Shown piece by piece: positions 227 to 51,922 of a DNA stretch of 64,000 bases. Origin of the DNA: Pyrenula massariospora (lineage: Eukaryota; Ascomycota; Eurotiomycetes; Pyrenulales; Pyrenulaceae); the NCBI GenBank assembly GCA_021030905.1, contig JAGFMI010000003.1, positions 2,170,001 through 2,234,000 on the forward strand, in the 5' to 3' direction. Below the pieces are notes generated by a model that saw only the letters and a program-made list of their open reading frames with translations, made no database searches and was not told the DNA's origin. The translations under genes and the position numbers were made by a program. The first letter of the stretch is position 1. Every line of letters starts with the position of its first letter.

Positions 227-1204
227 TCAAGCTTCAACCCCATCAACATACTCGATGCCCTGCTCCCCAGCATCCTGCCTCCAGAGCAGTATCCTCTCAT
301 AATCAAGCCAGTCCCTAAACTGACTTGGTCCTCGTTCATTCTCCTCCTCCTTCTCCTCTTCCTCTTCCGCCTCTTTCGTTACAAACCGCTTAGCAATCCC
401 TTGCTCCAACTCAAACTTATCCAACCGGCTCATCCTCTCCTTCTCCTCCTCCTCATCCTCGGTATCCGCCCACAACGCCTCCCACTCCTCCCTCTGCACC
501 CTCTTCCTCTCCAACTGCACCCTCCTCAATTCCATCGAATCCACCCTCCACAATCCCACCCCTCCATCTTGACTGCTCTCGCTGTCGCTCTCACCTCCCT
601 CCTTCTCCCCGGTTTTTTCCGCGCAGCCCTCGCCCTCGCCCTCGCTTTCACCTTCACTCTTCTTATCTCGGATGCTCGACCTCGAGCTCTCACTCTCCCC
701 TCCACCCTTTTCTTCTCGTCCTCGATCAACAAACCCCCCCACAACAGCCAACCCGGCCACCGCCCCCGCCATCCCGGGCGCATTCCTACACCTCCACACC
801 TCTCCTCCCCCTTCCCTCTGTCCCTGTGCCTCTAGTTCCCTGGCCTCCGCCGTCCCCGCGCGCGCCACCCGCACCACATACCGCTCTGTAGCTGCACATG
901 CACGTGCGCGGGTGGAGTGTTGGAGCGGGGGGTAGGGGTTGCGGCGGATTGTGCAGGGGGAGGGTATAAGGGGGGAGGGTTGGGTGGTGGTGAGGGTGGC
1001 GGTGTAGAGGGTGCGGGTTGGTGATGGGGGAAGGGGGAGGAGGGTGGGGAGGAGGGATGGGAGGGATCTTGGGGAGGGGGAGGTAGAGGAGGGAGTGAGC
1101 GGGGGTGAGGAGGCGGAAGAGGAGGTTAGGGAGGGGGTTGAGGGGATGGGGGAGCGGGAGATGGGGGAGCGGGAGGAGGGGGTGGGTTTTTGGTTGGTGG
1201 ACAT
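227..1204 (-). CDS. Hypothetical acidic, low-complexity protein
   Basis: Single-exon frame of 325 aa. I start it at the ATG at 1204 (MSTNQKPTPS...), because the open frame upstream reads like a leader rich in Pro, Tyr and His. The N-terminal third is Ser/Pro/Thr-rich and probably disordered. A weak Ala/Gly/Val hydrophobic patch (MAGAVAGLAVVGGF, near residue 175) could be a poor membrane segment. Runs of Glu/Gly/Ser follow, then a charged C-terminal part with likely helical Glu/Arg stretches. The last 40 residues (PSQFRDWLDYERILLWRQ) look the most protein-like and are probably the conserved part. I recognise no family. The coding strand is C-rich in the first half and G-rich in the second, so the frame could partly be kept open by composition. 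Confidence 0.55.
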   Translation of the reverse strand: MSTNQKPTPSSRSPISRSPIPSTPSLTSSSASSPPLTPSSTSPSPRSLPSLLPTLLPLPPSPTRTLYTATLTTTQPSPLIPSPCTIRRNPYPPLQHSTRARACAATERYVVRVARAGTAEARELEAQGQREGGGEVWRCRNAPGMAGAVAGLAVVGGFVDRGREEKGGGESESSRSSIRDKKSEGESEGEGEGCAEKTGEKEGGESDSESSQDGGVGLWRVDSMELRRVQLERKRVQREEWEALWADTEDEEEEKERMSRLDKFELEQGIAKRFVTKEAEEEEEKEEENERGPSQFRDWLDYERILLWRQDAGEQGIEYVDGVEA

Positions 1205-2201
1205 TTTTCGTGGTTTTATGTCGTGTAGTGGTGTGTGGTGTGTTGTGTGAGGAAGTGGCGGTGGCGTGGTATAAGGATAAAGTATTGGTATGGTGTGAGG
1301 ATAGAGTGGTGTATATTGTTTGTTTTTTGGTTGCTGGTTCGTCGGTGGTAGAGAGGCTGATATCCCACGAGCTGAGGTATGCGAGGTTATGCGTGTGTAG
1401 TGACCTTTGACGCGTGTTTCCTCAACGATAGAACTGGCGACAGCGACGATTTGCAGAGCACAGAACAGCACTCAGTAAGTCTCCGTGGAGCCAGAAGGCG
1501 TACGTAAATGCGTCCCTTCCAGGCGTAAGAACAAAACAAAAGTCTTCGACGAAGAAGCAGAAACGACGATGTAGAAAACAAAAAGAAACCAGGAACGACA
1601 ACCGCCAAAAACCAGCCCCTCTTAAGAGCCTCCCTCTCCAGCCCAAAAAATCCGTTTTTCCAAACAGAAAAACCTAACGACCGCACACACGGAAATCGTG
1701 CTCAGAAGAAAAACCCCTCACCCCAGCCACAGCCAAAGGGAAAACAGAGACAACAACAACGCGTGAGGAGCGCGTGTGGGATCGGACATCCATGTGTGGT
1801 AGGTGGGTGTGAACCATGGTACGGACTGGCTGGGGGTTGGCTGGGATAGGTTAGCAGGAGGACCATGTCCGAAATGGGATGGGGGATGGAAGGATGGGAA
1901 CTTTCGAGTCCGGAAATAATATGAGATAAAAAGTTGTGTTAAGAGTGGATGATTTATGGGGTGAGTCTGCAAGGCGATAGAGATATAATGCATAGGGTAG
2001 TGTCCGAGAGTCGGCGATGGACTTAAATTTGATCTGGCTGAGAACTCGAACACGACACCGTTCTGTGGTCATGTAGCCGGACGTATGTAGCCCTATAGTC
2101 GACTATTAAAGATTGCCAAGCTAAGCCAAGCCAAGTCACGTAGAGATAGCCTTGAATGTAATTTATACCGCTGTATAGAATCCAATACTATGGCAACTTC
2201 T
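1205..2201. other. Intergenic, no gene seen
   Basis: About 1 kb between the starts/ends of two minus-strand genes. Frames here are short or lack ATG starts and homology. It should hold the promoter of the 227-1204 gene and the 3' end of the RBM25-like gene. Confidence 0.5.
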
Positions 2202-10524: not shown

Positions 10525-11515
10525 ATGGCTTTAGACAAGACTACGAGAGATCCGAAGCTCTCACAGTCTCTCCCTACCGGGCCGCAAGACCAAGCTTCTC
10601 TTTCCTCAAAGTCCTTTCCTTCTGCAGACTCTTTCAAAACTCTCAATTCTGACCCCTCTACACCTACTCCTCAATGGAACAGCAGACACCTCGGTCTCCG
10701 CTTCGCCGCCGACGCGGCCTCTGCCGTGAGCGCGTCGTCTCTCATCGCACCACTCATCTGCCTGATCGATAGGTGTGCCCACCATCCACCCTCTCAACAA
10801 CTCCAGCTAACCCATCCCTCCCTCTAGATCTATCGTCGAAAAAGCCGCCACCAACACCCCCTTCTTCACCTGCTTCCGCCGCGCCCTCCACACCCTCCGC
10901 AAACCCCACCACTTCCTCACCTCCAAACCCTTCCTCCTCATCCTCACCCTCTACACCTCCACCTACCTAACCGCCAACACCCTCGATACCCTCACCTCCA
11001 CCATAACCCCCTCCCCCGCCCCCACCGTACACTCGGGCCCCACCAAATTCCTCGGCGTCTCCGCCGTCAACATGTCCCTCTGCGTGTACAAGGACTCCCA
11101 ATTCGCACGCCTCTTCGGCAACCCCACCGCCGCCGCCACCGCCCGCCTCCCGCTCCCCTCGTACCTCCTCTTCGCGCTCCGCGACAGCCTCACCATCCTC
11201 GCCTCCTTCAACCTCCCCCCGCTCCTATCCCCGCGCCTCGCGCCCCTCGCGGAGAACGTCAAGACGCGGAATAACATAGCGCAGTTTGTCACGCCGGCCG
11301 CGATGCAGATCGTGAGCACCCCGTTCCATTTGCTCGGGCTGGATCTGTATAATCGGCAGGCGAAGGGGGTGGGGTGGGGGAGCAGGTGGGCAAGGGTGCG
11401 CAGGGATTGGGGGGTGAGCGCGCTGGCGCGGATGGGGAGGATCGTGCCGGCGTTTGGGGTGGGTGGGGTGGTGAATCGGGAGGTGAGGGGAGCGTTGATG
11501 GGGAGGTTGGTGTGA
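10525..11515 (+). CDS. Predicted fungal integral membrane protein, possibly mitochondrial
   Basis: Two exons (10525-10772, 10828-11515), 311 aa. The donor is AG|GTGTGC and the acceptor CCCTCTAG, which joins LIDR to SIVEKAATNT. The N-terminal 70 residues are polar and Ser-rich. Hydrophobic segments follow at about 68-85 (LGLRFAADAASAVSASSLIA), 110-130 (FLLILTLYTSTYLTAN), around 190 (LRDSLTILASFNLPPLL) and later (VTPAAMQIVSTPFHLLGL). The motif VNMSLCVYKDSQFARLFG looks conserved. It reads like an uncharacterised fungal family of multi-pass organelle proteins; mitochondrial location is only an inference from the weakly amphipathic, Ser/Arg-containing segments. The 3' half is strongly G-rich on the coding strand. 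Confidence 0.75.
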
Positions 11516-12656
11516 GTGAATACGTCGAAGGGAAATTAAGATAAAGAGGGGGGACTAATCGATATTTGAAATTTTGGGGGCAAGGAGCTCATGATAGGAT
11601 AGGGTTGGAAAAAGCGTATCATTAATTGACTGTTATTGCGCTCGAGCGAACTCGGCGAAAAAGCATGCATTGCGTTTTTGGGAAGAGAAATATGGTAGGA
11701 AAGGGGCGCAGATAGACAGGAACAAGCGTCAACTTTTTACTTTCTACGGCGGAAAAGGATCTCAAGGCACATCCAGAGTGGAAGCTATTGGAAAATGTTT
11801 TTGGAAAGATGGCTAACAGCACCGGACACTGCATTGCATTGAGCATCAGCAGCATTGGCATTAGCATTTATTCCCATCCTAGAGTACTCTATAGATATAT
11901 AGATCGCAATCACATCTCTTCTACCACCGGTCTGTTCATATATACATAGAGGACAAGCACCTTAAGTAGGTCACACAGCACTATTCATCTAAATCAGATC
12001 CATACCAGTTGGCAGCATGCCATACGGTGCGGCGCTCCGTGCGAAGCAGGGTTGGGAAGATATGGTGTGTAAGGTGGTATTCTTATTGCGTACTTTTTCT
12101 TGGATGTTGCGCTTCGTTTTGTTCCGTTGGGAGACGTATCGTACAGGGAGGCAGGCGGTGGCAGGACATTTTCCCCTTATGTACCTAGGTCCCTTGGTGT
12201 CCCTGTTCCTGAAGCTATATACGTCAGTACATACATATATGCGTATCCGCGCTGGAAGTGCTCGAGCCCCACGCGTGTGCCGATGCCATCCATTTCTCTC
12301 TCCAGCACCTCCCTTGACCCCGTTCTGTTCTGTTCCCATGCATTGCGATTCATGTTAGAGTGATGCGGTGAGTTTTTGCAGATCGAGATACGAGCTCGAA
12401 GGATTAGAGCTTGCTGGCCATGCTGGATCTGGAGCGTCTGTGGCTGCTCGGCTCTGTGTGTGTAGCGTGGATGTTGTGGTGACGGTTGGTGAAAGGGTTT
12501 GGAGCTGGGAGGGGAAGGGAAGTAGGTCAGGTCAGATCCGAGAATCAGACCTCTGGTCGAGATATAGTAGCCCTTTGCATTCACCATTTGTCCAGTGCCG
12601 CACCGGAGGATGTCTGGCTGGGTGTCTGTCATCAGCGCACCAATCCAAATCCACAC
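11516..12656. other. Convergent intergenic region
   Basis: 3' regions of the membrane protein gene (plus) and the 14-3-3-like gene (minus). AT-rich stretch at 11880-11960. No gene seen. Confidence 0.5.
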
Positions 12657-13763
12657 TCAAATCGGATTCTCCATCCCAGGACTCGGCACCGCGGGCCTCA
12701 CCACCCCCTCCCCATTCCCATTCCCATTCCCATTCCGCGGCGGCGACACCCTCTGCCGCCCATTCCCAGCAGCAGCAGCACTCGACACCAAGACCGGATT
12801 CCCCACACCGCCGCCGCCGAGACCCCTCTTCATCATCCTCCCCAACAACCCCACCAGCTCCGCCGCGTCCTCGAAGCTCTCGTCGTCCATGCCCTCCTGC
12901 GCGTTGTACACGTCCGCGATGGTCTGCTTGGCCAGGCGCCTCGACATCTCCGCGTCGTGCAGGCAATCGTAAATATACGCGACGTACTCGAGTTTGACGC
13001 TAAGGCGGATGGGGTGGGAGCCGGGGAGCAGGGATTCGGCCAGTAAGGCCGCGGTTTGGAAGCAGGAAGTGGCCGTGGGAATGTAGTCGATGGCGGGGAG
13101 GAGGAAGGTTGCTGTGGGGCGGGGGGCTGGGAGGGGGAGGCCCGGGGGAGAGGAGACGGGTCCGCCGGTGAGGATGCTGCGGGAGAGGCCGGCGGAGGGG
13201 GTGGGCGTGCGGCCGATGGAGGAACGTTCTGAGGGGAGGGGTTTGGATTTGGTGATGTTGAGGCGGTCCGGGGTGAGGTTGTCGGTTAGGTTAGATATTG
13301 GGGAGGTGACAGCGGCGGCGGCGGAGGGGGTGATGGAGGGGTGGTTGTGGAAGAGGACGAAGATGTGGTAGAAGGAGGCGCGGAGTTTGTAAGAGAGGAC
13401 TTTGAGTTCGGTGTAGGGGTCCACCATGGGGAGTATGAATTGTTCCAAGACGTTCAGGCCTTCCCGGGAGAGCCAGATGATGTGGTGGTAGAGCTGTTGA
13501 ACGCTTTTGGTGTCTCTTGTTGGGTCGAGACGGCGCATTTTTCTGGCGCGAACTAGCTTCCGGGAGAGTAACACTGAGAGGCCGAGAATCTTATAGAGCA
13601 TTGACGAGAGTAATGGGTTCTCATTGCCTGTGTTCTTGGCGAAATGGCCAAGAAACTTTTGATCAATATCTGATGAGGCCATCCAAAGTGTGAATAGAGC
13701 TGGGTCATCCGCGAGGAGTAACTGGCGTGCCCTCTCTGTTAGCTTTTGTGACGTTCGCGCCAT
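12657..13763 (-). CDS. Divergent 14-3-3-like protein
   Basis: Single exon, 368 aa. The start at 13763 (MARTSQKLTERARQLL) agrees with the family N-terminus (helix 1). Residues 45-75 (NPLLSSMLYKILGLSVLLSR) align with the helix 3 region (LLSVAYKNVVGARR). Residues 124-138 (SYKLRASFYHIFVLF) align with the MKGDYYRYLAEF region. Residues 250-312 (HPIRLSVKLEYVAYIYDCL, RRLAKQTIADVY, EDAAELVGLLGRMMKRG) align with helices 7-9. An 85-residue Ser/Pro/Thr-rich insertion (about 141-225) sits between the two halves, and a Gly/Asn-rich tail (GNGNGNGN, from a hexanucleotide repeat) replaces the usual acidic tail. By eye the phosphoserine-binding residues are replaced (see findings). True 14-3-3 proteins are about 250 aa. 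Family membership is quite sure; function is unknown. Confidence 0.82.
   Translation of the reverse strand: MARTSQKLTERARQLLLADDPALFTLWMASSDIDQKFLGHFAKNTGNENPLLSSMLYKILGLSVLLSRKLVRARKMRRLDPTRDTKSVQQLYHHIIWLSREGLNVLEQFILPMVDPYTELKVLSYKLRASFYHIFVLFHNHPSITPSAAAAVTSPISNLTDNLTPDRLNITKSKPLPSERSSIGRTPTPSAGLSRSILTGGPVSSPPGLPLPAPRPTATFLLPAIDYIPTATSCFQTAALLAESLLPGSHPIRLSVKLEYVAYIYDCLHDAEMSRRLAKQTIADVYNAQEGMDDESFEDAAELVGLLGRMMKRGLGGGGVGNPVLVSSAAAAGNGRQRVSPPRNGNGNGNGEGVVRPAVPSPGMENPI
12711..12734. repeat. (CCCATT)4 inside the 14-3-3-like gene
   Basis: Four exact hexanucleotide copies; read on the minus strand they code the GNGNGNGN tail. Change in copy number would keep the frame. Confidence 0.9.
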
Positions 13764-21511: not shown

Positions 21512-22237
21512 GAAGTGGAAAATGGGATAACAAGTGTGATTAAAGGTCACGGATGGACGCGACAGGGAAAGGTACCGTGCATACGACTACCCAGTATTTA
21601 CTAGGAGAGTCGCTCAAACTGAGGTTTGGACCTGACAGCAATCCGAGCCTCTGAACTTGGACTCCATAATGTCTGTATGCAAATAAGTGATAAATGTTGC
21701 AATCTTTTTCTTCCTTATCTGATTAGTGACATAGATTTGTGAGGTACGATCTCGCCGCAAGCCAAGTTTCTGAGACTAGGATTTCGTATCCTTTTACGGA
21801 CGTTGCGGACTCCCAAAGAAAACAAGACTCTTCTCCACAACTGTGCTCGACATTAGACCTCGCGGATAGGATTTGCTTTTTCAGAGGGCTCCAATACCAT
21901 TTTCTGAAACACAACTCTTGTCCAAAAATCCTTTTTAAAATCGCACCATCGGAGCAAGAGAAGACCGACGTTGATTTCGAGGTCCAGAAATCTCTCATTA
22001 AAAAACAGCGCACTTGATCATTCCTGCACCTACGCTCTTTTCCTAAGTATAGATTGCTATGACGCCGTCAATTACACCGACGTACGGATAGCAGCACGAA
22101 CTTCGAAAGCATTTCTTCTAAATCCTCCACATGGCCGTCAGCAACATCGTCGAAATTTCCAACTCATAACATCCATCCCACACCTCCTTCAACAACCCCA
22201 CTCTCTACACACACACACACCCTCCCAAGCCCACGCA
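21512..22237. other. Intergenic, no gene seen
   Basis: 3' end of the DUF3237 gene and promoter of the PSI protein gene. A short CA repeat (ACACACACACAC) at about 22208-22220. Confidence 0.4.
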
Positions 22238-22717
22238 ATGCCCTGGCAAACCCCCCTCCACACCTGCTGGCGCCACCAATCCTGCCCCTCCTGCCTCTCC
22301 GTCCCGGGCCCCGACCACTGCTCCTGGTGCCCCGTCTCCGGCACCTGCGTCCCCAACGATGCGCGCATTCCGCTCCTCGCACCCATTCTGCGCGAGGATA
22401 TCTGTCCGCTGGCGTGGCGGGAACGGCTGGAGCTGAGGAGCGGCGGGCTGGGGTGTCGGGTGAGTACGTATTCGTTTTTGACGGGGTGGGCGTGTGTGGT
22501 GGGGACGTTGGGGACGTTGGGGGTGGGGTGGGGGGCTTGGAGGGGGGGGAAGTGGGTGGGGAGGAAGTGGAGGGGGAGGGGGGAGGGGTGGTGGAGGGTG
22601 AGGTGGAGGGGGGGGAGGTGGAGGGGGGGGAGGAAGGAGGAGCAGATGGGAGGGGGAGGGGAGGGGAGGGAGGAACAGGAGAGGAGGGCAGAAGAAGAGA
22701 GGCCGCTGCTTGGGTGA
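22238..22717 (+). CDS. PSI-domain membrane protein
   Basis: Single exon, 159 aa, starting MPWQTPLHTCWRHQSCPSC. Eight cysteines in the first 90 residues (CWRHQSCPSC, CSWCPVSGTCVPN, ICPLAWRERLELR, LGCRVS) follow the plexin-semaphorin-integrin (PSI) pattern seen in fungal membrane proteins of this type. A transmembrane segment follows (SFLTGWACVVGTLGTLGVGW, about residues 80-105). The rest is a basic Arg/Gly/Trp tail from an extremely G-rich stretch and ends EERPLLG. No clear signal peptide precedes the PSI domain, so an upstream exon is possible. The antisense poly-Pro frames here are composition artefacts. Confidence 0.7.
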   Translation: MPWQTPLHTCWRHQSCPSCLSVPGPDHCSWCPVSGTCVPNDARIPLLAPILREDICPLAWRERLELRSGGLGCRVSTYSFLTGWACVVGTLGTLGVGWGAWRGGKWVGRKWRGRGEGWWRVRWRGGRWRGGRKEEQMGGGGEGREEQERRAEEERPLLG

Positions 22718-23695
22718 TGATGCATTTGGGATGTTCAAACCTTACTACGACGCTCAATGTGTCAACAACAGGGACTCGGACCATATACAGGAAAGGCATG
22801 CAGAGATTGACTCTGTCGACAACCTGTCTGAGCCGCATTCCCCAACGATTAGTCCTTCACCCTTCCCTCTTCGATACGACAAAGTCCTCCAAAGATCCTC
22901 GAAAGTCAATGACCTTCGGCCACCTGCCCATCCACATCGAAATAGACTGTTTTCGAACCAAAGTCACAGACTTCCAGCACCCTCCATCACTAGATATCAT
23001 ACCAACTCAAATTCAACCAAAGCACCATTCCACCATCGGTCACATCATCCATCTCGATCCCTCCGTTGCCCCTCAAAACCAAGACATCACGCGAACTCCC
23101 ATTCCTCCATCTCAATCCAAAGATCGGCCAAAGGGGACCGACATATCGTTATTTCGACCGTCTAATCCACCTCACACGGCATTACCGAACGAGTTAGAAT
23201 ACCATGCAGCCTGAACAATTCAATTTACCACCTCCTCCTTGGAGGGAACGAGACGAGCCAGCACGAAACCCACACACCCACCTTCTCCCATCCTACCCAG
23301 GATTGACTCGCGGCCTGCCTGCCTCCACCACTTTGTGTACAGCACATACACAAATACTAGTTAGACCCTGATCTAAACCTGGTTGATGAATGAATTCCTT
23401 TTTACATTTATTTAGCCAGCTAGAGCGTACTGTCCATCCAGCATCGGGCTGGGTGATACTCGATCGATCCGATCTCCGGGGTATATGTGTATGTATGTAT
23501 AAAAGCATCCGAAAAAGCCTGCACCCTGCACTCGATCTCCATCCCATATCCCTCCCCTCCTTCCCTCTCCTTTCCTCTCATCAGCCCGCACGCCCACCCC
23601 CTTCCTTTTGTGACGCAAGCATCCACGCAATGCAAAGAACCAACCCGCTCCGAAATGCTCGAGAGAAGAAAGTCGAAGAAAACCTAATTCTCATC
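22718..23695. other. Convergent intergenic region
   Basis: 3' regions of the PSI gene (plus) and the MFS gene (minus). Plus-strand frames of 150-295 codons overlap here, in two different frames; they lack homology and run on from the G-rich tail, so I do not call them. Confidence 0.4.
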
Positions 23696-25726
23696 TCACG
23701 CCGCTCCCGCCATCAAATTCCGCCCCTTAACCGTCTTCCACTCAAACAGCGCACACGTCACAAACGCCAACCCCCCCACCGCAATCGGAAGGATAAACGT
23801 CCGCGTCACCGCCACATCGTACGCCTGCAGCACGCCCTGCAGCAACCTTGGCGGCGTCACCTCCTTGACGTGCGTCGCGCCCGCGGCGATCACCAGCTTC
23901 GGGTCCAGCCCTGGCGCGCGCTTCGGTATCTCTTTCGTCAGGCTATTGGTGAAGATGTTCTGGGCAATCGACACCGAGATGGCCCCGCCGAGCGTGTTGA
24001 AAAACACCGCGATCGCGTTCCCCGTGGGCATGTCGCGCTTGCTGAGCACGACCTGCACCGCGATGAAGGGGATCTGGATGCAGGCGCCAGCGCCCGCGCC
24101 GGCGAGGATCTGGTAGCCGATCCAGCGGCCCGCGTTCGAATTCACTTGAAGCGTATAAAGGAGGCCGGAGCCGACGACGTAGACGGCGGAGCCGGCGTAG
24201 AGGAAGGGGACGTAGGGGCCGATGGCGGTGATGGAGCCGCCGACGACGATGCTGGCGATGGTGTTGGAGATGAGGAAGGGGACGGTGCGGATGCCCGAGG
24301 CTTCGGCGGTGGTGCCTTTGACGGCTTGGAAGTAGAAGGGGAGGTAGTAGATTTGGCTGGTGAGGTTAGGTTGGTTGTGGGAGGGGAGAGGGTGAGAGGG
24401 GGCTTACGTGTAAATGGCCATTGCGACGAAGGCGGAGAAGAGGGCGCAGGCAAGGACTGTGCGTTGCCCGATGAGGATGTGGGGCGGAAGGGTTGCCGTT
24501 GGTCCTCGCTTGATTTGGACGATGATGAAAGCAATGATGATCAGACCGAAGCCGAGGAGCGTGCCCCATACTTTGGAGTTGTGCCAGGGGTAGACGGATC
24601 CTCCCCATTGAAGAGCCAGGAGAAGACAGACTATTGCGCAAATCAGGAGGAAGGCGCCGAGAATATCGATCTGGGCAATCTTCTCCTTTAGTGACAGCTT
24701 GCTCTCTTTCCGTTTGGGGTTCTTGAAGAAGAAGAAAACAGAGGCTATAGCGATGCCTCCAACAGGAAGGTTGATCCAGAAACACCATCGCCAGGTAAGT
24801 CTGTCCGTGAAAGCACCTCCTAGGATTGGGCCAACGATGCTAGAAATACCAAACATGCTTGACAAGAGTGCAATGTAGATTGCACGTTTCCTTAAGGTAA
24901 CAGTATATCCAATAATGGTCATGCTGCCCGAGAACAATGCAGAAGCACCAACTCCAGCAAGCGCACGACCTCCGATGAGCATGTTCGAGTCTTTTGCTGC
25001 TGCACAAACGACAGATCCAGCTTCAAAGAGAACAAGGGCGAGAATGTAGGTCCATTTCACGTTGAAGTATGTATAGATTTTCCCGAACGACGGTTGTAGA
25101 GAGGTAGTGGTCAGGAGGTACGCGGAGCCGTACCAGCCGACGTCGTTGAGAGAATCAAAGACTGTTGTTATTTTAGGGATCGCCGTAGCAATGATGGTGT
25201 TGTCGAGGGCGACAACGAAGGTTGAAACGCAAAGACCGAATGTAAGGATCCAGAGGGGCAATCCATGTGGATATTTTGATTCGTCGTCAACGCCCGCTTC
25301 TGAAGCTTGTGTGTCGTGAGTTTCCGTCGGCTCTAATTCCCTTGAACCTGTCCGTTCTGCTTCCGAGATTTCTTTGTTCTGGACATCCTCTTCCTTCACT
25401 TGTTCTGGCTCCTTCTCGTCGGCGGTTGGGGTGGCCTCCACGGGCGTTGTAGCTCGCATGCTTGCTGTAGGCGATTTCTGCACAGGAACCTTCTCATCGG
25501 CAATGACGTCTGTTGACGATTCATCTGCGCGGCTGTCACGATTGCTCTCATGATGGTCGACGTTTGCTTCTTTGCCCAGCTCTTTCGCCGTCAAATCTTG
25601 AGAATCTGTGATTGGGTTTGAACGTTCCGTGGGCTTGGAATCTTCTTTGGTTGGCTCCTGCACGTCACTAGCGGGAGCCTCCAGGGACGATGCCTGCGCC
25701 CGCCGTCGTTGAAACGGCAGCCTCAT
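23696..25726 (-). CDS. MFS exporter, DHA2 (14-TMS) toxin/drug efflux type
   Basis: Two exons (25726-24408 and 24356-23696), 659 aa. The first 150 residues are a cytosolic, acidic, Ser/Thr-rich extension. The transporter begins near residue 155 (PLWILTFGLCVSTFVVALDN). It carries DHA2 hallmarks: LDNTIIATAIPKI (motif D1-like), LNDVGWYGSAYLL, GGRALAGVGASALFSG (motif C region) and GAFTDRLTWRWCFWINLPVGG. Splicing joins AIYT to QIYYLPFYFQAVKGT. The C-terminus ends FEWKTVKGRNLMAGAA. The family exports toxins and drugs in exchange for protons at the plasma membrane. The substrate is unknown, and no adjacent biosynthetic backbone gene (PKS or NRPS) is in the window. Confidence 0.92.
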
Positions 25727-35938: not shown

Positions 35939-37875
35939 ATGTCTTCCTGGCAAGACCTCGCAGCCAAAAAGCGCGACTCAATCCTCTCTTCCTTCCCCTC
36001 CTCCTTTCCCCGCCTCTCCCCCATCCCCTCCCCCCTCCCGCGAGACGTCAACCCAACAATCGAATCCTACCTCACCCCCCTCGACCTCACAATCACCAAC
36101 TCCACCGTCCCCACCCTCCTCGCCAACCTCCACTCCGCCACCTGGTCCGCCGAAACCGTCCTAACCGCCTTCTCCAAACGCGCCCTCCTCGCCCACCAAC
36201 TCACCAACTGCCTGCACGAATCCTTCTACCCCACCGCCCTCGCCCACGCCCGCTCCCTCGACGCCCACCTCTCCGCCACCCACGCCCCGCTCGGCCCCCT
36301 CCACGGCCTCCCCGTCAGCCTCAAAGACCAATTCCACGTCGCCGGCGTGGACACCACCATCGGGCACGTCGCTTATATCGACCAGCCCGCCGCGCGCGAC
36401 AGCACCCTCGCCACTGTGCTCCGCAACGCGGGCGCCGTGCTGTACGTCAAGACGTCCGTCCCGCAGGCTAGCATGTCGGGCGAGACGTTTAACAACATCA
36501 TCGACTACACGTGGAACCCCGCCAACACCCTCTTGTCCGCCGGCGGCAGTTCCGGCGGCGAAGGGGCGCTGATCGCAGCCCGGGGGAGCCCGTTGGGGGT
36601 GGGCACGGACATCGGGGCCAGCGTGCGGGTGCCGGCTGCGTTTAATGGGCTGTGGGGGGTGAAGCCGAGCAGAGGAAGAGTGCCGTTTAGGGGGGTGAGG
36701 GATTTTAGCGAGGGGGTGGGGACGACGGGGTTTAGTCCGGGGATGATGGCGAAGGGGTTGGAGGGGGTGAGGGTGGGGTTGAGGGCGGTGGTGGAGGGGC
36801 GGCCGTGGGAGTGGGATCCGAATTGTGTCAACTTGGGGTGGAGGGAGGAGATGGGGGAGGAGGTGAGGAGGAGGGCTGGGGAGGGGGGGTTGGCGTTTGG
36901 GGTGGTTTGGTGGGATGGGATGGTGAGGACGCACCCCCCGGTGAAGAGGGCGATGAGGATGGTGGTTGATGCGTTGAGGCGGGAGGGGCATGAGGTGGGT
37001 CAAACAAGCATATTCCATTTTCGCCTACCGTTGCAAACTGGGACTGCTAACTTGCGATCTCCATCCAGGTCATCGAATGGGACCCCCCCAACGACCTCCT
37101 CAAAACCCTCCACAACATCGCCGTAAGCCCCCCTCCCCCCTCCATCCCTATCCTCCAAACCCCCTAACCAACCCCCCTACCTACAAGCTCAAATCCTGGT
37201 CCTACGACACCCACCCCTACACCACCGCCTTCTCCCTCTCTGGCGAGCCCCCCAACCCCTCCTCCTTCGCCTCCCGCTCCTCCTCCTCCACCCCCTCCCC
37301 CCAACCCACCGCTGCCTCCGTCGTCTCCAACAACGCCGCCCTCCTCCACGCCCAGCACGCCTACCTCGACTACTGGAACGCCTCCGCCTCCCGCATCGCG
37401 TCCGGCAAAAAACCCGTCGACGCGGTGCTCTGCCCCCTGGCGCCCTTCGCCGCGGCGCGGAGGGGCTTGTTCACGCACCTGGGCTACTCGGCGTGGGTGA
37501 ACGCGCTGGACTGGTCCGCGCTGGCGGTGCCGGTGACGACGGCGGATAAGGGGGTTGACGTGGTGGATGGGAGTGAAGGGCAGGCGGTGAGCGAGGTGGA
37601 TAAGACGATCTGGGAAAGCTGTAAGTTTGGTTTTTTTTGGCATTCTTGGGTACTTTCCTTGTTGTTCTAGTTTTTCCTTTCTCTTTGATGATTCTAGTAA
37701 TTTACGCACCCTGCTGACGAGGCATACTGGCATAGATGACGCAGAGATGTATCATGGCACGCCTGTGGGCATCCAGCTCGTGGGCAGGAAGTTTGAGGAG
37801 GAAAAGATTTTGGCGGTCGGTGAGGTGGTTGAGAACGCGCTGAATGCTATCAAGGAGAATGCTTCAAAGCTCTGA
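35939..37875 (+). CDS. Amidase signature (AS) family hydrolase
   Basis: Four exons (35939-36994, 37069-37122, 37188-37620, 37736-37875), 560 aa. The Ser-cisSer-Lys triad is visible: Lys129 in VSLKDQF, Ser204 in GGSSGGEGAL, Ser228 in TDIGASVRVP. The distances of 75 and 24 residues equal those in FAAH (142, 217, 241). The usual DIGGS reads DIGAS here. The C-terminal exon gives MYHGTPVGIQLVGRKFEEEK, the family end. These enzymes hydrolyse amides, for example acetamide or fatty acid amides; substrate unknown. The closest fungal relatives are probably acetamidase-like cytosolic enzymes. Two C-to-G composition switches occur inside this one gene. Confidence 0.92.
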
Positions 37876-37923
37876 TAAGGGCCATCTATTCACTAGTGCC
37901 TTTGAGTCTATTTTACAATTCCC

Positions 37924-39350: not shown

Positions 39351-40043
39351 TCTGAACGTGTTCACAGGAGCAGAGCAAGGTTGGAAGATGAGACCTCAGT
39401 GAAGGGAAGCGGTGCGGAAAGTAAACGAGCTGCCTGACAAAGAGAAGAGAAGGGAAGAGAAGACTTGGAAACGCAATGAGACCGACTTGCTCATCAACCT
39501 TTCCAGTAATTGTTACATCTATGCAACCGTTTATCACCTCAAAGGCGGTGTCGCTCGCGGTGCCTGTGCAAGCTTACGGTGCAATACGATTGAACGAGAC
39601 TGCTCGGCCCTCGGCCTGGAGAGCTTCCCCCGCAAAAACCGCCGAATCACGTGAGATAAGTCCCCGGACGATCACGTGTGCGGAGAAAGCTCACTGTCCA
39701 TTTCCAACCACCACATTTTCCCCTTTGACGTGGATCCAATCCATTCGAAAAACTACCCAGCCTCTGTTCCTCCGAAACGATGAGGCTGGGAGTAATTTTC
39801 CCGGCGGTGCGGATCATGACCACAGAGCGACCAACAGTCAAAATGGCTTTGTCTCCCAGCTTCGACAACGAGCTCCAAAACCTCCTGGCTATCAACACCA
39901 GTCTATTTACAAAATCATCCCAAAGACTTCTCGAACCACCTTGAAAGACTTGTTCAGCTAGCGTCTACAACAACAAAAAGTCCAATCGCCTTTGGAAAGA
40001 ACACTTCATCCAGTCTCAAAAACTCTTCCCACCGCTATCAATC
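39351..40043. promoter_or_regulatory. Divergent promoter region, acyl-CoA dehydrogenase / hypothetical gene
   Basis: 693 bp between divergent starts. It contains two ATCACGTG/ACGTG-type E-box or G-box-like sites, at about 39648-39653 and 39674-39679. Frames present are shadows without homology. Confidence 0.4.
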
Positions 40044-40661
40044 ATGGCATGGGTCCGTGAAAAACGCCCCCCTCGCCAACAACCAACCCATATCGCTGAA
40101 TCCGACACTTTCCTCACCGCCCTGCAATACTTCTCTGGCCGCCTCCCACCGGCTGTCCCGGCACCCGACCCAAACCATGTGATCTACTCCAAACCACATC
40201 CCGTCCGCAAAGGTCGTCCCCTCCTCGCCATCGAAGCACCCCCTCCCCGTACGTCGCCCAGAGACCGCTCCGCCTCGCCCAAGAAACACGCACAGAAGCG
40301 AGTGCAGAGCGAGCGGCACGCGCCGAGACGGCGGATGTACGAAGACAATGATGATGACGGGAGCGTCATCGAAGTACCTCGAAGAAGCGAGAGGGGGGGA
40401 GATCATGAGGAGGTGATTGCACGCGCGGTGGAGAGGGCGATGGATCGGTACGCGAGGGAGTCCTCTGCGGCGCCGTTGCGGCACACGACATCTTCGTCCT
40501 ATGCTGCCTCGGTACCGAGATCGAGAGCGTCGAGGGTGCCGAATGAGGAGCTGTGGTGGAATTCTGGGAGGCAGCGGACGAGGGAGGGTGGTGGTAGGGC
40601 CGCAGGGGGTGCGCAGGGGAGGTGGGGGAATGCGACGAGTGCATTGCCGGGGCTGTCTTGA
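40044..40661 (+). CDS. Hypothetical basic, disordered protein
   Basis: Single exon, 205 aa, starting MAWVREKRPPRQQPTHIAES. The first 65 residues look conserved (FLTALQYFSGRLPPAV, NHVIYSKPHPVRKGRP). The middle is rich in Arg, Ser and Pro with basic clusters (RRRM) and an acidic EDNDDDG stretch, then an amphipathic EEVIARAVERAMDRYA helix. The end is Gly/Arg-rich. Similar short orphan-type proteins are common in Pezizomycotina; no function is known to me. The composition flips from C-rich to G-rich within the frame. Confidence 0.6.
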   Translation: MAWVREKRPPRQQPTHIAESDTFLTALQYFSGRLPPAVPAPDPNHVIYSKPHPVRKGRPLLAIEAPPPRTSPRDRSASPKKHAQKRVQSERHAPRRRMYEDNDDDGSVIEVPRRSERGGDHEEVIARAVERAMDRYARESSAAPLRHTTSSSYAASVPRSRASRVPNEELWWNSGRQRTREGGGRAAGGAQGRWGNATSALPGLS

Positions 40662-43600
40662 GGTGATGGAGAGCGGATGAGGATTGCGACCTAACCGACA
40701 ACTTGTCGCTGTTTTCGGGATTCAATGTTGTTGTTCACAATAGATGGCGCGGGGCCAGCATTTCTGGGTTTGGGTTTGGATTTGGATTTGGGCTTGTACA
40801 ACGGCGTCAAGCCATGTTCGGAGGGGGGGAATCCGCCATAAAGCAGCTGGGATAGTTCAAAGTTTCAATTCACGGCCAGTTTCTACACTTATTCATACAC
40901 TCCTGTACACCATCTAGATATCTAGCCCTAGCCACACCCCATTACGTCCCTCACCAAATCCAAATGCCACCTCGAACAATCCCTTTAAGCACCATATCCT
41001 CAATGCCCCATCAATCCCCTATCTACAGTACATACCTACACAATAAGCCCACACTCACTCACACCAATCCAAAGCACGGCACGGTAGCCAGCCCCTTTCC
41101 TCGTCTCTACCTCACTCTCTTCTCCCATCCCCTCTCATCCCATTGCATTGCTCACCGTATATTCCCCCGCCCTCGCCAGCGCTGCCAGCACAAAGGCACA
41201 CACGCCCTCCACCTACCTACCTACCTACCTACCTATTTATCCCCACCCGCCTCGCGCTGCCTATAGCAATAGCAATACTAACAGCAATAGCAACACGGTC
41301 CCCATTCCCTTTCTCTTTTTCATTCCCATTCTCATCCCGCGTGACGTAACGTGACGGGGCTCGCGCGCTATCTAGGCCAGAGTGCCATTTCTGATCTTGT
41401 GCTGTGCCAGGGTGGAGGACAGGTCAGGTCAGATATGGGGCCGGACGAGTTGAGTTGAAATTAACGGCCAGGTTGGGGGGGAAAGGAGTACGTGCGTACG
41501 TGCGTACATAGGTGATATCTATCCCGCGGACAGGGGCTTGGGGTAGGTCTTTGCTGGGCGGACGGACGAAGCTGGGGCTTCGCGTGCTTGAGTGCTGTTC
41601 TTGATTTTTACACGTACATGGGTTTGGAGAAATGACGAGTGCGTGTAGAACTGTTTTGGACAGGGACGAGATTAGGGTAAGGGTAGGGAGAATAGGAAAG
41701 GAGCAGACTCGTAGTTGGGAGAGGGGTTCCTTCTGTGGAAAGACAGCAATTGATAAAGACGGGGCTTGTCACGCTTGCATGAGTTCATATAGAGTAGTGC
41801 TCTGGGAAGGCAAAGAAACTTAGATCCATAACGCTTCAAAATATTTAGAGATAGGAGCTCTGCCTGTGAGTAACATGTAGGCTTTCGGCGTAGACTGGTT
41901 TGTTTCCTGCCCCCGGCGCGCCGTGATCAAGAGGCGAGGAGGCCGCGGACATGTCATCTGTATCACAAACTTGCGATGTATGCTGTGTCGCCGCTGCTAA
42001 CCACAAGTCACATAGACAAATATTGGATTTTTTAGATTAGCCTGATCATATCAAGAACAAGGTCCGACCGTCAAGGATTCGCCTAAGGCCACAGTCCTTG
42101 AATCACGAGGAGAGATTGCTGACATCTTGGGGCCTAACCCCCTTTCGCGTCTTTTGGTAGTTGTTGCCTGAGATAGTAATCATGATGGATAATACCTTCA
42201 TCGAGAGACCAAGAAAATAGAACTTCATTTCCAATCTTGGCTCCAATAATCTGACGATACGAACAAGACCGCCAAGGCCGCCGATCTTTCATAGTCATCA
42301 TGGGCCGCAAATGATGGCGTGGGTCATGGCTCAGGCCCTCTGTCGATCTCTGTTGGGGAAAAAGAACGTGCGGAAGAGTCCGGAGTGGCAGCTTTCTGCC
42401 TCCTTTGGGCGAAGTCGGGTGATCTTGTTGTCAATTCGAGGACAGTGGGTCCTTGATGACGGGCGAGCAATAGCATCGATGTTCAACAGTACCTTGTATG
42501 TCCTTGTAGGCGAAATGAGGCATCGGCGGCGTAGAGAGGTATTTTGCGTAAGAGCAATCTCGCTTGTCGCCCACTGTTGCTTCTTAGGAAGACAAAACTT
42601 GCAACATTTACCTACCTTCACAATTGGCACCTTTGACATAGCTCAGAAAAACAAAAGCCTTGCAGGAGTCGATCATGAAATGTTTGCATGGATCGGCTTC
42701 ACCAAAATGCGCATGCAGCTGTGAGGCTGCTTGTACATGAAGGCGGTGGCGAAAGTCTCCAGGTGGGCTGATTTGTTGTGGTTGACCTTTAGGGTTATAC
42801 TAATGATCATCGCCTCGTGTAGGAAGCGATCTTGGCGGCGTCCTGCGCACGGCAGGCTGCTAGAATGCACGCAGGGAAGGCCAATGCGAGCATGGGCGAC
42901 AAAAGGAATCGCATTTGAGCATTTTGAGCGAATCAGAATAATGGCCGGTCCTAGAGAGGAGACGATGGACGATGGTGCATTTTGTCTAGACAGTACAAGA
43001 GCAAGATAGGCGCGCAGGCGGCAGGTGCCTTTCAATAGTGCGCTTGGGGTCCGGATCCTGAAATAGCAGCACATGAACCATTCCGCACTAGCAAATGACG
43101 ACAAATGATGGGGAAAAGCGTGGACGCAGGTGATGAAGATGACAAGGTCTAGATGCTGATGATCATGCGGACATCGCAGCAGATGCAGCACTGCCTCTAC
43201 AACACCAAGCATTGTCTCATGGAAGGGCCTTATGAGGCTCCGGGGATCCATTGCGGAAGTAGGCGATCCTGTAAGCTGAATATTGGTGCAAGCGGAGCCT
43301 CATGTTGGAGTTTGGTTAGCTAGCGACTACCGACCGATGAACGGTTCTGCGGTCAGCACCCGAGCTGACCACAGGTGAGACAGGCGTGATATGAACTTCG
43401 TGATGCTTGGCAGAATACATCGAGACACAGTTCCTTTACCAGCGGATCGAGGTGGAAGAAGAAAGTACACACGTCAGTCGCGTGTGGTGTAGCGGATGTG
43501 TTTTGTGTGGTACCGCCATCGCCATGCCGATACTTCAGCCCCGTTGTGCAATCGTAGCTAGCTTTGAAAATGGTTAAGATTATTGCGTGGCTTGCCATGT

Positions 43601-46893: not shown

Positions 46894-49800
46894 ATGAGGT
46901 TGTCTCTAATTACGTTATGTGTCGCTTCGGCGGTTGTCTCATCAGCAAAAGGTGCTCCTCAGCCAAGAGAACAGACTGCGAGACCAAAGTATTACTTTCC
47001 CCGGATAGTCAAGAAACAGAATTGGAACAGTTCGACCACAACGGAGTCTATAACCTCCCAGTCTTCTACCCAGGACTCATCTACCCAGGATTCATCGACT
47101 CAGGATTCATCGACAACTGACTCCATCACAACACGATCAGACCCCACGTCCTTGACCTCCTTTCTGTCGTCTCTGTTTAGTAGTAGTGACAGCATTACAA
47201 ACACCATTGCCGAGTCCTCTTCTGTATCTGATGGATCAAGTTCTGGCACTACAACGGATGTCATACCAGTCACAACTACTATAGACACTCCTCCAGGGTC
47301 GACACCTTCCGCCACGCCTGGCTCAAGTGGAGGCGATTCGAGCTCTGGCGGTGTTTCCATCTCAGACTCGGTTTCGGTCACTCTTCCATCCGGCACAGGA
47401 GATACTTCCATCCCAGTGATAATACCAACCGGCACAGGAGAACCTGGTAGCTCTACTGCCGTAACCATTCCGCCTGGAACAACCTCACCACCCGACTCTA
47501 GCAGCTCAAATGGGGCATCAGATAGCTCGAGCGGAGCTTCTGGAAGCTCGAGTGGAGGTGATTCTGGTAGCCTTTCCGGTACTGGTATTATCCCGACTAT
47601 CATCCCCACGGGGACTGATAGCTCCACTGGTGATAGCTCCACTGGTGATAGCTCCACTGGTGTGTCAGACAGCTCAAGTGGAGGAATCTCGATTTCTGGA
47701 ACAGGTAGTGTAACGTTGCCGACAATCATTCCTACAGGTCCTACAGATACTGGTCCTTCGAATACTGGCCCTACAGATACTGGTCCTTCGAATACTGGCC
47801 CTTCAGAGACTGGCCCTTCAAACACTGGCCCTTCAGAAACAGGTCCATCAAACACGGGTCCAACAGAAACCGGCCCTTCAAATACAGGTCCTTCGAACAC
47901 TGGCCCTTCGGGCACTGGCCCATCGAACACAGGTCCATCAGGGACAGGTCCTTCAGAAACAGGCCCATCAAACACTGGTCCGTCAGAGACTGGTCCTTCA
48001 AATACAGGCCCTTCGAATACAGGTCCCTCAGAGACTGGCCCGTCCAACACTGGTCCATCGAATACAGGTCCGTCAGAAACAGGTCCATCAAATACAGGGC
48101 CCTCACAAACAGGTCCTTCGGAAACAGGGCCCTCGCAGACAGGTCCATCAGAGACCGGCCCGTCTCAGACAGGTCCGTCACAAACCGGTCCCTCGCAGAC
48201 AGTTCCAACAGAGACGGGGCCATCACAAACGGGCCCGTCAGAGTCAAATGGTTCCACTGGAGGCTTTCCTACAACTGTCATACCAGGTACTACACCGACA
48301 GAAACACCAACTCAGACGCAACCTACAGATACTGGAGTGGGATCAACGCCTGGTCAATCAAGCGACACATCGACAGGGATCACGATTGGACTATCAACTA
48401 TTATTGGATCAACAGACACTGGCTCGTCATCTGGCTTTCAATCTACCACGTTTGGAATCTTCCCCACAGACACGTCAACACCGAATCCCATTTCGTCAAT
48501 CATTTCCAGTATCTTCTCTGGAAGTGACAGCACACCTCCCATCACAATCATTCCTGGAAGCACGAGCACACCCGTGTCTGGGTCGCCGACTGATGGTTCA
48601 TCTTCTCAGCCATCCATAACCGATGTCTCCTCGATCCTGTCTTCCATCATATCATCCATTGTCTCCGGGACAGACACCGGCACTGTGACTATCCCGATAC
48701 CAACAGACTCAAGTACTGTTGTGTCAGGCACTGGTCCGTCCGGAAGTACAGTAGTGACCTCGCCGACAGACACCACACTACCCGGCTCAGGCTCAACTAT
48801 CATTAGTGGGACAGGAAGTGAAACCGCAACGGTTCCTACCAGTACTGGGACTGGAGCTACCGAATCCACCGGAAGTCCTGGTTCTACTGAACCTACCGGC
48901 TCAACTGGGTCAGTCACTAGTACCGCAACCGGTGGAACAGGCTCTAGCTCTGGCGTGACCGACAGTGGTACTACGAATACGCAAACAACTGGACCGAGTG
49001 GTACGGAGACTGGTGCCTCTTCGACTGGTACTATTGTTCCGGGAAGCACAGCAACCGCAAATGGGACGAGCACTGGAGCTGTTCCCGGTAGTACCGAATC
49101 TGCTTCTACAGGAACGGCGACAGGAGCCAGCTCTACCGGAACGAATACTGTGGTACCGCCGGTCAGCACAGGCACAGAATCATCGAACACTATGCCGCAC
49201 ACGATCTTACCGACTGGATCGAACACCGAAACTTCACAATCAATACCAACAAGCATTGTGATTGCTCCGTCTCCCACCAGACCCAATGGACCAGATGACT
49301 CGACAATGCCTAGCAGCATACCCAAGATCATCTTACAAGATGGGAACGCTCCGACCGCCCCACCAAATACGACCCTGATCCAGATCGGCTTCGACTACAG
49401 CCTCAACTACGACTTTGTAGTCTCCAGCATGACAGCTGTCTCACAAATCTTCACCTTCCTCCCCATGGGTGTCGCCCACGGCCTCGATATTGACATAAAA
49501 GATGTCCTGATCTCCAATCTCGCTCCCTACGACAACTCCAAGAAAACTCGGTACATTGCGACCGTTGCCAAAGCCTATGTCGCAACCGACCTGATCGACG
49601 CCCTCTCGCTAGCCCTCCACACCCGCCGCTCAGAACTCTACAGCAGTCCTAACCCCTCCGTCAGAACGCTAACAAGCTACATCGACCCCTCGATCCCGCT
49701 CCTCGGCGGCCTGACGCTCGACGGCTCCGGCCTCCCCAACAACAACGCCCAGAACGGCGGAGACAACAATGATAACGCCAATAACGGTGCACCTCTGGGT

Positions 49801-50187
49801 GGATCGTCCGACGAGAGCAAGGGTGTTCGCCCTAGCTCCGTCGGCATCGCGGTTGGCTGTGTTGCGGGTGCCGCAGTTTACGGCGCGGCCATGTTCTTCG
49901 TCGCGAGACGGTATCGGCGCAGACGTAGCCAGCACAGGCGCTCAAGCAGCATGATCAACACCGATGACATGCGGCAACGAGGCGATGGCGCCGCGGGCAT
50001 CATGACAGCGCTCATGTCTGGGGGCCGGTCGCATGACGAAGGGGGTAGCGGAGGCGGGTACCGGAGCACGACGCCGAACAATGGGCGCGGCTCTCGGAAC
50101 TCGAGGAATAGTGGACGGAGTGGGAGCGCGAGGACGCAGTTTATCAGTGCGCCCGTCATGGCGGAGAATTCGCTGGGATGGAATTAA
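46894..50187 (+). CDS. MSB2: Signalling mucin Msb2 homologue
   Basis: Single exon, 1097 aa. Signal peptide at residues 1-20 ([20 protein letters not shown]). Residues about 45-800 are Ser/Thr/Gly/Pro-rich, expected to be heavily O-glycosylated, and include 34 copies of a five-residue TGPSN/E/Q-type repeat (about 281-450). The segment 808-940 ([56 protein letters not shown]) matches the extracellular Hkr1/Msb2 homology domain. One membrane helix follows at about 983-1005 ([20 protein letters not shown]), then [12 protein letters not shown] and a tail of about 90 residues. Msb2 is a plasma-membrane sensor upstream of the Kss1/Fus3-type MAPK path for surface sensing and filamentous growth. The assignment rests on the homology domain. 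Confidence 0.88.
47734..48243 (+). repeat. 15-bp minisatellite in MSB2
   Basis: Thirty-four tandem copies of a 15-bp unit coding TGPS plus N, E, Q, G or D; 510 bp, no frame break. The unit shows silent and replacement changes, so it is an older array that still expands in register. Variants [10 protein letters not shown] and a TVPTE are scattered. The reverse strand is also open here only because of the repeat. Confidence 0.95.
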
Positions 50188-51922
50188 GAGGTGGAGATGT
50201 GATGTGTTTGTGTTGTACAGCGGGCATGCATTTAGCGCCTTCGCTTTTTTTTTTGTTCTTTGTTGGATTGATTGAGTGACGATACCCCCGACGCCCGACC
50301 TGCAGTGTGTCTTATCTCACACCGATCTACGACATGTCTACATGACAGCTACTTGATTTTTCTTTAGTTTTTGTTGTCTTTAAACTTCGATATCCCCCCC
50401 ATTTGTTGGACAGTGATGGATTTGAACTGGAGAAAAGCTTTTGAATTAGCTTGGATGTTTGCTGAAGGGGTTTGCATCATCCCGCGCTTGTGGGGATGTG
50501 AGAGAGTGAACGAAAGAAAGAGGCGGATGGATGTCGGGGTGGCAGATTTGTAAATATACTACATCATACCTACCTACATTGCAGCGTGGAAGCTGTTACC
50601 ATAGAGTGAAGTGGCGCTGTGTATGGGAGTTGTAATGAATCCAGGAGACGCTTTTCTACTTTACTTTTGATTCTTTTTTTGGAGTTCCTGTAAGACTATG
50701 TGCTATGACGGTAAACTGGTCCCTTTACGATAACAGGCTCTATCCAAACCAAACCTGCTATCCTACCAACATCACTTACCCCTTCCCATCATTTTCGTCC
50801 ATTCAAAACCCCTTTTCATTCTTTTGATAGCCACTCTATTCCCATGCCCTCTTTCCCCCCACCCCAAAACCCTCAACATCAAGCCCAGCCCACGCACGAA
50901 GGGACCCCGTATAATCCAACGACAATGTATAACCGCTTAGAAAAAAACATCACAGCTGCACCGGCCGGGCACGCCTGCTCCTGCTCTTCCTCGCGCTGTG
51001 TACGACATGCCGTGTCATGGCATGATATGGCAAATAGACATGGTTCCCGCCTCACCCTTGGGATAGGCAGGAAGCGTTGTGACGGTCTGGCAAGGGGCTT
51101 TGGGAACAGTCTGATATAAGATCCTTATGATAGACAGCCTGGGATTGGCAGTTTGTGATGGGTCTGGTTGCAGAAATTTTGGGAGGGGTCTGATATGGGA
51201 GTTTTATGAGAGTGGTATGGGAATTTGGTGGTAGTATCGTCTTGGCGTGTGGATTGGGATGGGATGGATGGGAGAAGACCGGGGTGTGGGTGTGGGTGTG
51301 GGTGTGGAGGAATGTTTAGTAGATACATACACAGTGGAATGGAATGAACACGGCGGCTTGACATGATATGGGCGGGTCAGAGTAACACTCTGCGCTTTTT
51401 ACTTTGTTTGAGAAAAAGGGCTTTTCCATACACCCACGCTCCAATCTGCTTCCTTCGCAAAGACCCAATCTCAATCCGATCTGGTCCGTACGATCCATCC
51501 CATCTCGCAGTCCTGCCAAATGGTAACCACTCCCTAACCCCATACCTCTTTCTCCCTGCCCTCATATAACGAGAAGAGAACGAGAACGTGTCCAGTCGGC
51601 GATCTGAACACGAACATGAACTCCTGTTCATTCCTCCCTCTTCCTTCCAGGGCACACTATGTGCGCGCGTGTGTGCTTTGATCCACTGGTTGAGATAAAC
51701 ATCAAACCTAGCTGATGATAAAAAAAAAGCCAAAAAGCTTCAAGTAGAGAAATGGCATCGCGCATACCATCCCCACGCCCCCTTTCAGCCACCCATAACA
51801 AAACGCCGTCTTCGTTATGCGCGCAATGCGAGCTAAAAAAAAATGAGGTGAGTAGCGAAAGGGGACTCGTCACGTCGTGAGGGTATCTGTGTTAGTGTTG
51901 GGCGAAAGTCGTAAGAACGTCG
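50188..51922. other. Convergent intergenic region
   Basis: 3' regions of MSB2 (plus) and the RING gene (minus). Holds a (GGGTGT)4-type G-rich repeat at 51281-51307 with quadruplex potential. No gene supported. Confidence 0.45.
51281..51307. repeat. GGGTGT tandem repeat
   Basis: Four copies of GGGTGT in 27 bp, preceded by GGGATGGGATGGATGGG; four or more G-runs in a short span could fold as a G-quadruplex. Confidence 0.75.

Follow-up and report, generated by a model that had tools for sequence, protein, structure and literature searches.

Mirror-symmetric C-to-G composition islands near gene 3' ends in Pyrenula massariospora: a possible footprint of strand-dependent repair at recurrent breaks

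What kind of process leaves short GC-rich stretches of DNA in which the plus strand passes from a C-rich left arm, through a balanced centre, to a G-rich right arm? Such islands recur along a 64,000-nt stretch of the genome of the ascomycete Pyrenula massariospora (the window; positions 2,170,001-2,234,000, in an assembly of 37.83 Mb and 33 contigs), for which an earlier note had claimed nine switch points. We located switches with a matched filter, the G minus C content per base over the 300 bp to the right of a point minus the same quantity over the 300 bp to its left. A C-to-G peak was detected within 100 bp of each of the nine points (Table 1). Two of these peaks are weak (24050 and 49850), and three islands missed by the note (51057, 41391, and 62273) outscore them; five further C-to-G peaks that it did not list have filter values of 0.30-0.37.

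The polarity of the pattern was counted in the window together with 19 stretches of 10 kb, set at round coordinates and chosen blind to their sequence (L005-L007, L011-L018, L019-L022, and L023-L026, of which L005 and L006 flank the window), a sample of 254 kb of which some early counts cover the first 214 kb. Three other stretches, L008-L010, surround loci that resemble the island at 887; they were excluded from the polarity counts and contribute three open reading frames (ORFs) to the codon analysis and three to the test of position in long ORFs. Comparing the two switch directions in high-GC DNA, as the earlier note had proposed, gave 21 strong C-to-G and no strong G-to-C switches at a centre GC of at least 0.60, and the one-sidedness reaches well beyond the window (14 versus 0 in the outside 190 kb). 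It was kept at arm widths of 150-600 bp, the sole contrary peak appearing at 150 bp and threshold 0.4 (1 versus 24). When peaks were instead selected for GC content alone, blind to skew (GC of at least 0.62, first 214 kb), 33 of 39 switched from C to G (P 1.4e-5), as did 23 of those with a change above 0.4, against 3 contrary cases. Without the GC condition, threshold 0.4 returns 30 C-to-G peaks, 20 coming from the 190 kb beyond the window, which extrapolates to roughly 4,000 genome-wide, and 20 G-to-C peaks. That G-to-C peaks as such are not rare is a contrary result. They lie beside islands, at a mean centre GC of 0.48; none of 17 in the first 214 kb is 900 bp or more from a C-to-G peak (7 of 30 at threshold 0.3), and in L023-L026 each of three lies within 850 bp of one of five C-to-G peaks. 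Twenty first-order Markov sequences of 64 kb produced no peak of at least 0.4 of either sign, with a filter maximum of 0.26 and minimum of -0.32. The observation is confirmed as real and as more than chance.

The islands share a characteristic shape. Mean GC climbs from about.50 at ±475 bp to about.63 at the centre, CpG is above expectation at centres and below it in the flanks, and the arms extend some 400-700 bp; at roughly 475 bp from the switch, mean skew is again close to zero. The best islands have skews above 0.8. Over 300 bp to either side of 887, composition runs from C 0.52 and G 0.13 on the left to C 0.06 and G 0.62 on the right. Islands also cluster, with 8 neighbouring pairs closer than 1300 bp where 2.9 are expected (P 0.002). 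Clustered islands stand about 0.6-1.2 kb apart with abutting arms, as in L019, L013, L014, L016, and L025 and at 36541/37397 and 40299/41391 in the window.

The nature of the bias is clearest at two-fold codon sites. A Pfam scan of 49 ORFs matched 22 at E ≤ 0.001 and left 27 without a match; since skewed DNA is poor in stop codons, short ORFs, including those of at least 220 aa, are partly unreliable. Codons were read in 14 ORFs, 13 with a Pfam match (one below the cut-off) and an MSB2-like frame, with the same ORFs more than 700 nt away as control. The earlier note held that the bias works through silent positions. Third positions do respond most, from C.64 and G.13 in the gene-sense 5' arm to C.17 and G.59 in the 3' arm (control C.26, G.21), yet first and second positions shift in the same direction, and amino acids move with them. 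At two-fold sites of the 5' arm, C/(C+T) is.85 and G/(A+G).35 (controls.49 and.49); in the 3' arm G/(A+G) is.80 and C/(C+T).40. Resolved by distance, the symmetric component of two-fold sites is 0.84-0.98 from -200 to +100 nt, 0.39 at +100 to +200 nt, and between -0.13 and +0.27 further out, except for +0.65 at +400 to +500 nt (46 codons). At 100-500 nt the asymmetric component ranges over 0.92-1.64 in the 5' arm and over 0.75-1.07 in the 3' arm; its sign flips at the switch. Synonymous sites thus record a symmetric, GC-raising core of about ±200 nt and a strand-asymmetric part that extends to ±400 nt or more.

In the flanks, the shift concerns C and G separately. Four-fold sites at -400 to -300 nt (n 264) hold A.18, C.59, G.06, and T.17, a composition near that of the controls except that C is up and G down by a shared factor. 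Over the same interval C/(C+T) is.79 and G/(A+G) only.18, unlike the equal favouring of G and C in classical GC-biased gene conversion (gBGC). At four-fold sites the arms have T/(A+T) values of.500 (n 190) and.569 (n 102), and controls one of.531, a difference that is not significant at this modest power; because A and T are balanced, no single mutation type explains the shift. Neither base depends on runs in its own arm, with CC at 0.95 and CCC at 0.85 of expectation in the C arm and GG at 0.99 and GGG at 0.98 in the G arm. The bias also continues in non-coding DNA after stop codons, where G is.334 and C.153 in the 1187 nt (13 ORFs) that lie no more than 400 nt from a switch, and.230 and.288 further away. 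Control codons of the 14 ORFs are themselves G-poor at four-fold sites (G.17 versus A.27, C.25, and T.30), and background codon usage away from islands is thus asymmetric on the coding strand.

For proteins, each amino acid received a score, the G minus C of the first two positions of its codons, and the 120 homologs listed per search served for comparison. The amidase of the window falls below all 120 listed homologs in its 5' arm and above all 120 in its 3' arm (z -5.9 and +5.4). A metallophosphoesterase behaves likewise, below all 114 that could be scored of its 120 listed homologs in the 5' arm and above all 120 in the 3' arm (z -5.6 and +7.0), and a DUF3402 protein deviates weakly in the same direction (z -1.7 and +1.6). 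The bias seems strong enough to change proteins, or to push against protein constraint. Of all homologs, the best match of the amidase, from Pyrenula ochraceoflavens (Eurotiomycetes, Pyrenulales; 64% identity), deviates most in the 3' arm and in the segment that precedes the 5' arm. Considering only the columns in which the two proteins differ, it remains shifted beyond 111 and 114 of 119 homologs in those two segments, in support of an independent shift, and is neutral in the 5' arm; the fourth and last segment aligned differently between MAFFT runs and was excluded. This comparison suggests that the amino-acid shift may be common to the P. ochraceoflavens lineage.

How the islands relate to genes requires some care. 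The earlier note argued against transcription from the fact that polarity is the same whatever the direction of the gene. This argument turns out to be uninformative, because a C-to-G switch reads C-to-G on both strands, so that polarity cannot depend on gene orientation. For the same reason the refutation it proposed, a switch direction that follows gene orientation, could never occur in a pattern that is its own reverse complement. Islands oriented by Pfam matches lie in plus-strand genes (amidase, PSI, metallophosphoesterase, L27, amino-acid transporter, and MUS81-like) and in minus-strand genes (14-3-3-like, DUF3402, FYVE-RING, two ABC transporters, and SAGA-Tad1). Nor are the islands independent of genes, as they prefer the vicinity of gene 3' ends. 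The window and L005-L026 contain 35 closed ORFs of at least 400 aa, whose largest C-to-G switch sits 21 times in the last third, 10 times in the middle, and 4 times in the first third (P 0.0018). Most of the switches concerned are weak, with 12 at 0.3 or more. The preference is found in 19 of 32 ORFs when the three from L008-L010 are removed, in 8 of the 12 with a switch of at least 0.3, and in 15 of 17 ORFs of at least 600 aa. In 18 of the 35 the G-to-C minimum lies in the last third too, where the right edge of an island would place it; the test therefore speaks to the 3' position of the structure as a whole and does not single out the C-to-G point.

The trend toward gene ends is visible in mean skew as well. 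In 63 closed ORFs of at least 220 aa (214 kb), coding-strand skew moves from -0.16 at 650 nt before the stop codon to +0.30 at 50 nt, and from -0.10 to +0.23 in the 48 of them that contain no strong island. Over the same interval 13 ORFs of a check set move from about -0.16 to +0.20; the trend is not visible in the 9 check-set ORFs without a strong island. A test of relative position for the 19 of 30 islands inside ORFs of at least 220 aa gave only P 0.03. At nominal starts (first ATG, ORFs of at least 220 aa) the coding strand is C-rich, with a skew of about -0.19 at -50. This resembles the promoter CG skew of Leptosphaeria, which the available part of that study places in a peak just before start codons, unlike the islands' location (PMC3411245).

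We propose that the islands are the footprint of recurrent recombination-initiating breaks near gene 3' ends whose repair carries a strand-dependent bias, a reading drawn from the composition of one genome and to which we give a probability of roughly 0.48. The geometry speaks for it. A symmetric centre flanked by mirror-image asymmetry would be expected from a resected double-strand break, and the earlier note's suggestion of a process mirror-symmetric about a centre holds, its option of breaks and repair fitting best. Each island centre would mark a cluster of meiotic double-strand breaks, at which 5' resection would leave a 3'-ended strand, the top strand on the left and the bottom strand on the right. 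In the heteroduplex between this recipient strand and newly copied donor DNA, repair would favour C on the recipient and G on the new strand. Mismatch repair might achieve this if it targeted chiefly mismatches that contain G and resolved them toward the donor; alternatively, a pathway that restores GC might protect recipient C but not recipient G. Over many generations the left would gain C and the right G, even where protein constraint opposes it. We prefer conversion to mutation because transitions and transversions behave alike, the core raises GC, and amino acids are under force. The specific version of this reading, in which repair prefers C on the recipient (3'-ended) strand, each recurrent break site writes a C-to-G switch, and breaks are concentrated inside gene 3' ends, is tentative and on balance somewhat doubtful.

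Gene content makes meiosis and the relevant repair classes plausible in this fungus. The matches comprise one SPO11-type TP6A_N domain (E 3.9e-10), a MAT alpha box (E 1e-19), six MutS_V, two UDG, and five HhH-GPD, and speak to the presence of genes only. One C5 DNA methylase locus, with two matches, lies at 498353-499299 of contig C10 and is of possible relevance to repeat-induced point mutation (RIP) or CpG methylation.

Several features are shared with gBGC at recombination hotspots, namely the local GC peak, the raised CpG of the centre, the involvement of coding and non-coding sites, and the strongest response at synonymous ones. However, classical gBGC treats G and C alike, whereas the flanks of the islands favour one of them on each strand. 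A geometric parallel is provided by human meiotic breaks. New mutations there show no strand asymmetry in the central ±100 bp of hotspots, while in the flanks C>N and A>N on the forward strand are mirrored by the complementary changes on the reverse strand; the single-stranded DNA is forward-strand on the left of a break and reverse-strand on its right (Hinch et al. 2023, PMC7615360). Human breaks and the islands thus have in common a symmetric centre and mirror-image asymmetric flanks, although the reach of the flanks differs (about ±0.5 kb here, about ±2 kb in humans) and so does the sign: the 3'-ended strand loses C and A in human flanks (PMC7615360) but has gained C in this fungus. The opposite sign argues that single-stranded DNA damage of that kind is not the driver.

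A basis for the observed sign may be found in mouse conversion data. In the portion of Li et al. 2019 available, two strand-aware heteroduplex pathways are proposed, and the authors note that the GC-biased one could be confined either to recipient G or to recipient C (PMC6715734). A pathway acting on recipient C, or one favouring G on the new strand, yields C on the left and G on the right, as observed; the proposal would accordingly predict a skew such as ours, whose sign corresponds to recipient C. It derives from mouse conversion tracts, and the text available draws no link to compositional skew (PMC6715734). Intragenic hotspots like those proposed here are described for the filamentous ascomycete Zymoseptoria, where many lie inside exons (Stukenbrock and Dutheil, PMC5844332). 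Among literature on GC skew and strand asymmetry, the titles and abstract openings of open-licence texts yielded no description of such islands.

Four observations weigh against recurrent breaks with biased conversion. First, the switch lies about 180-640 nt before the end of Pfam-matched ORFs, inside coding sequence, a position for which the conversion reading does not account, and gene-end hotspots elsewhere have been tied to nucleosome-free regions outside it. Second, many gene ends show weak switches, which would allow a gene-linked cause unrelated to recombination. Third, four-fold sites have a larger symmetric component than two-fold sites, so that a description by two parameters is incomplete. 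Finally, biased conversion in Zymoseptoria is extremely weak or absent according to that study, whose text does not contain the word 'skew' (PMC5844332).

A different outcome of the same breaks would place the bias in mutation and not in transmission. If the resected strand (bottom on the left, top on the right) were refilled by mutagenic synthesis, through an error-prone polymerase or unbalanced nucleotide pools, the new strand could gain G and lose C with the same geometry, and a base-specific pool bias would also shift C and G without A/T skew. Strand-asymmetric mutation in resected flanks has a precedent in human hotspots, according to the available text, but the C>N and A>N changes of the 3'-ended strand would remove C from the left arm, the reverse of what is seen here (PMC7615360). 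Such synthesis would further have to bias transitions and transversions equally and would need a second process for the GC-raising core, and the distance by which first and second positions and amino acids have been pushed favours a force that biases fixation. We consider mutagenic synthesis unlikely.

Transcription deserves attention because islands follow gene 3' ends and because the strand argument of the earlier note leaves it standing. Divergent transcription from a sense and an antisense promoter, or R-loops, centred on the switch with G-rich outgoing transcripts, would give the same self-complementary pattern. GC skew at CpG-island promoters and gene ends is linked to R-loops, and the coding strand near gene ends is G-rich there as here; a paired C-rich arm of similar strength, which the islands have, is not known to be part of that feature. 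Transcription-associated mutation, A>G and C>T on the coding strand, should leave that strand with more G than C and more T than A, without a rise in GC. The T/A skew expected from it was not detected at four-fold sites in either arm (n 190 and 102), GC climbs to about 0.63 at the centre, and the coding strand is C-rich in the 5' arm. Moreover, the two arms are similar in strength, the 5' arm if anything the stronger, although mRNA runs one way. A transcriptional origin is in our judgement improbable.

Local replication origins at each switch, with leading-strand DNA G-rich on both sides, would reproduce the polarity, as bacterial origins also switch from C to G when read left to right. But skew of constant sign should then persist over the distance forks travel; it fades within about 450-700 bp, islands are often about 1 kb apart, and replication does not explain the symmetric GC core. 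Bidirectional replication, the other option raised in the earlier note, is thus the less likely of its two, with arms of only about 400-700 bp and a GC-raising core, and we hold it to be very improbable.

Selection on mRNA or protein, whether for a 3' hairpin between C-rich and G-rich arms, for codon choice, or for C-terminal composition, is the least credible of these explanations. The arms are complementary in composition, and folding of 8 islands showed a mild pairing excess over arm-wise shuffles (z -2.36 to +0.75, 7 of 8 below zero, mean about -1.2). This excess is small beside the effect of composition, the bias persists past stop codons, and amino acids leave their family composition in opposite directions in the two arms. 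Hairpin or palindrome selection appears unlikely since arm-wise shuffles explain nearly all of the fold energy, the mild excess aside; the sole inverted repeat reported in the window at the settings used is a 33-nt pair of 73%.

A mobile element or shared repeat appears unlikely (three loci match the 887 island at 70-76% over about 90-170 bp, each with a C-to-G switch, in matches that look compositional). Two further candidates were rejected: slippage in homopolymers (CC and GG are at expectation in their own arms) and cytosine deamination or RIP (which would lower the C and GC that islands raise). AA nevertheless reaches 1.28 in the C arm and TT 1.21 in the G arm, slightly above backgrounds of 1.10 and 1.09, and G-rich arms hold imperfect short tandem runs. 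Enrichment of 6- and 8-mers at 22 centres revealed no convincing shared motif.

Table 1. Composition islands of the window, with the point claimed in the earlier note where there was one (window coordinates).
Switch	Extent	Strand	Filter	Earlier point	Setting
887	537..1237		0.95	880	Strongest in window; inside minus ORF 227-1471, no Pfam match
11250	10900..11600		0.71	11290	Plus ORF 10811-11512 without Pfam match
12989	12639..13339		0.64	12980	Minus-strand 14-3-3-like gene (PF00244, E 8.5e-9); switch ~330 nt ahead of stop
22391	22041..22741		0.86	22420	Plus ORF with PSI (plexin repeat) match (PF01437, E 8.8e-6)
~24100	23750..24450		0.34	24050	Weak; beside minus-strand MFS gene 24404-25726 (MFS_1, E 1.9e-35)
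36541	36191..36891		0.59	36520	Middle of plus-strand amidase ORF 35939-37126 (PF01425, E 2e-78)
37397	37047..37747		0.60	37430	3' part of amidase gene; C-terminal match E 9.3e-4, below Pfam cut-off
40299	39949..40649		0.50	40330	ORFs on both strands, no Pfam match
41391	41041..41741		0.53		Absent from earlier note
~49750-49850	49430..50130		0.32	49850 (nearest peak 49751)	Weak; near 3' end of MSB2-like plus ORF 46894-50187; switch 404-432 nt before stop
51057	50707..51407		0.54		Absent from earlier note; no ORF of at least 150 aa at site
62273	61923..62623		0.46		Absent from earlier note

Two repeats of the window were also noted. The MSB2-like ORF carries a long tandem array with a 15-nt period (30 and 45 fit too) at 47616-48318, mucin-like in appearance and outside the skew island of that gene, and another plus-strand ORF carries a 33-nt repeat family at 34687-34901.

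Even if its cause should prove mutational or transcriptional, the pattern represents, to our knowledge, a stronger local strand asymmetry than any described, and it may mislead gene finding (through long spurious antisense ORFs), codon statistics, and tests of selection in this fungus. Should recurrent breaks with strand-dependent conversion be the cause, break sites would be readable from a single haploid sequence, and the question of which recipient base, G or C, is served by the GC-biased pathway, left open by the work in mouse, would be answered as C.

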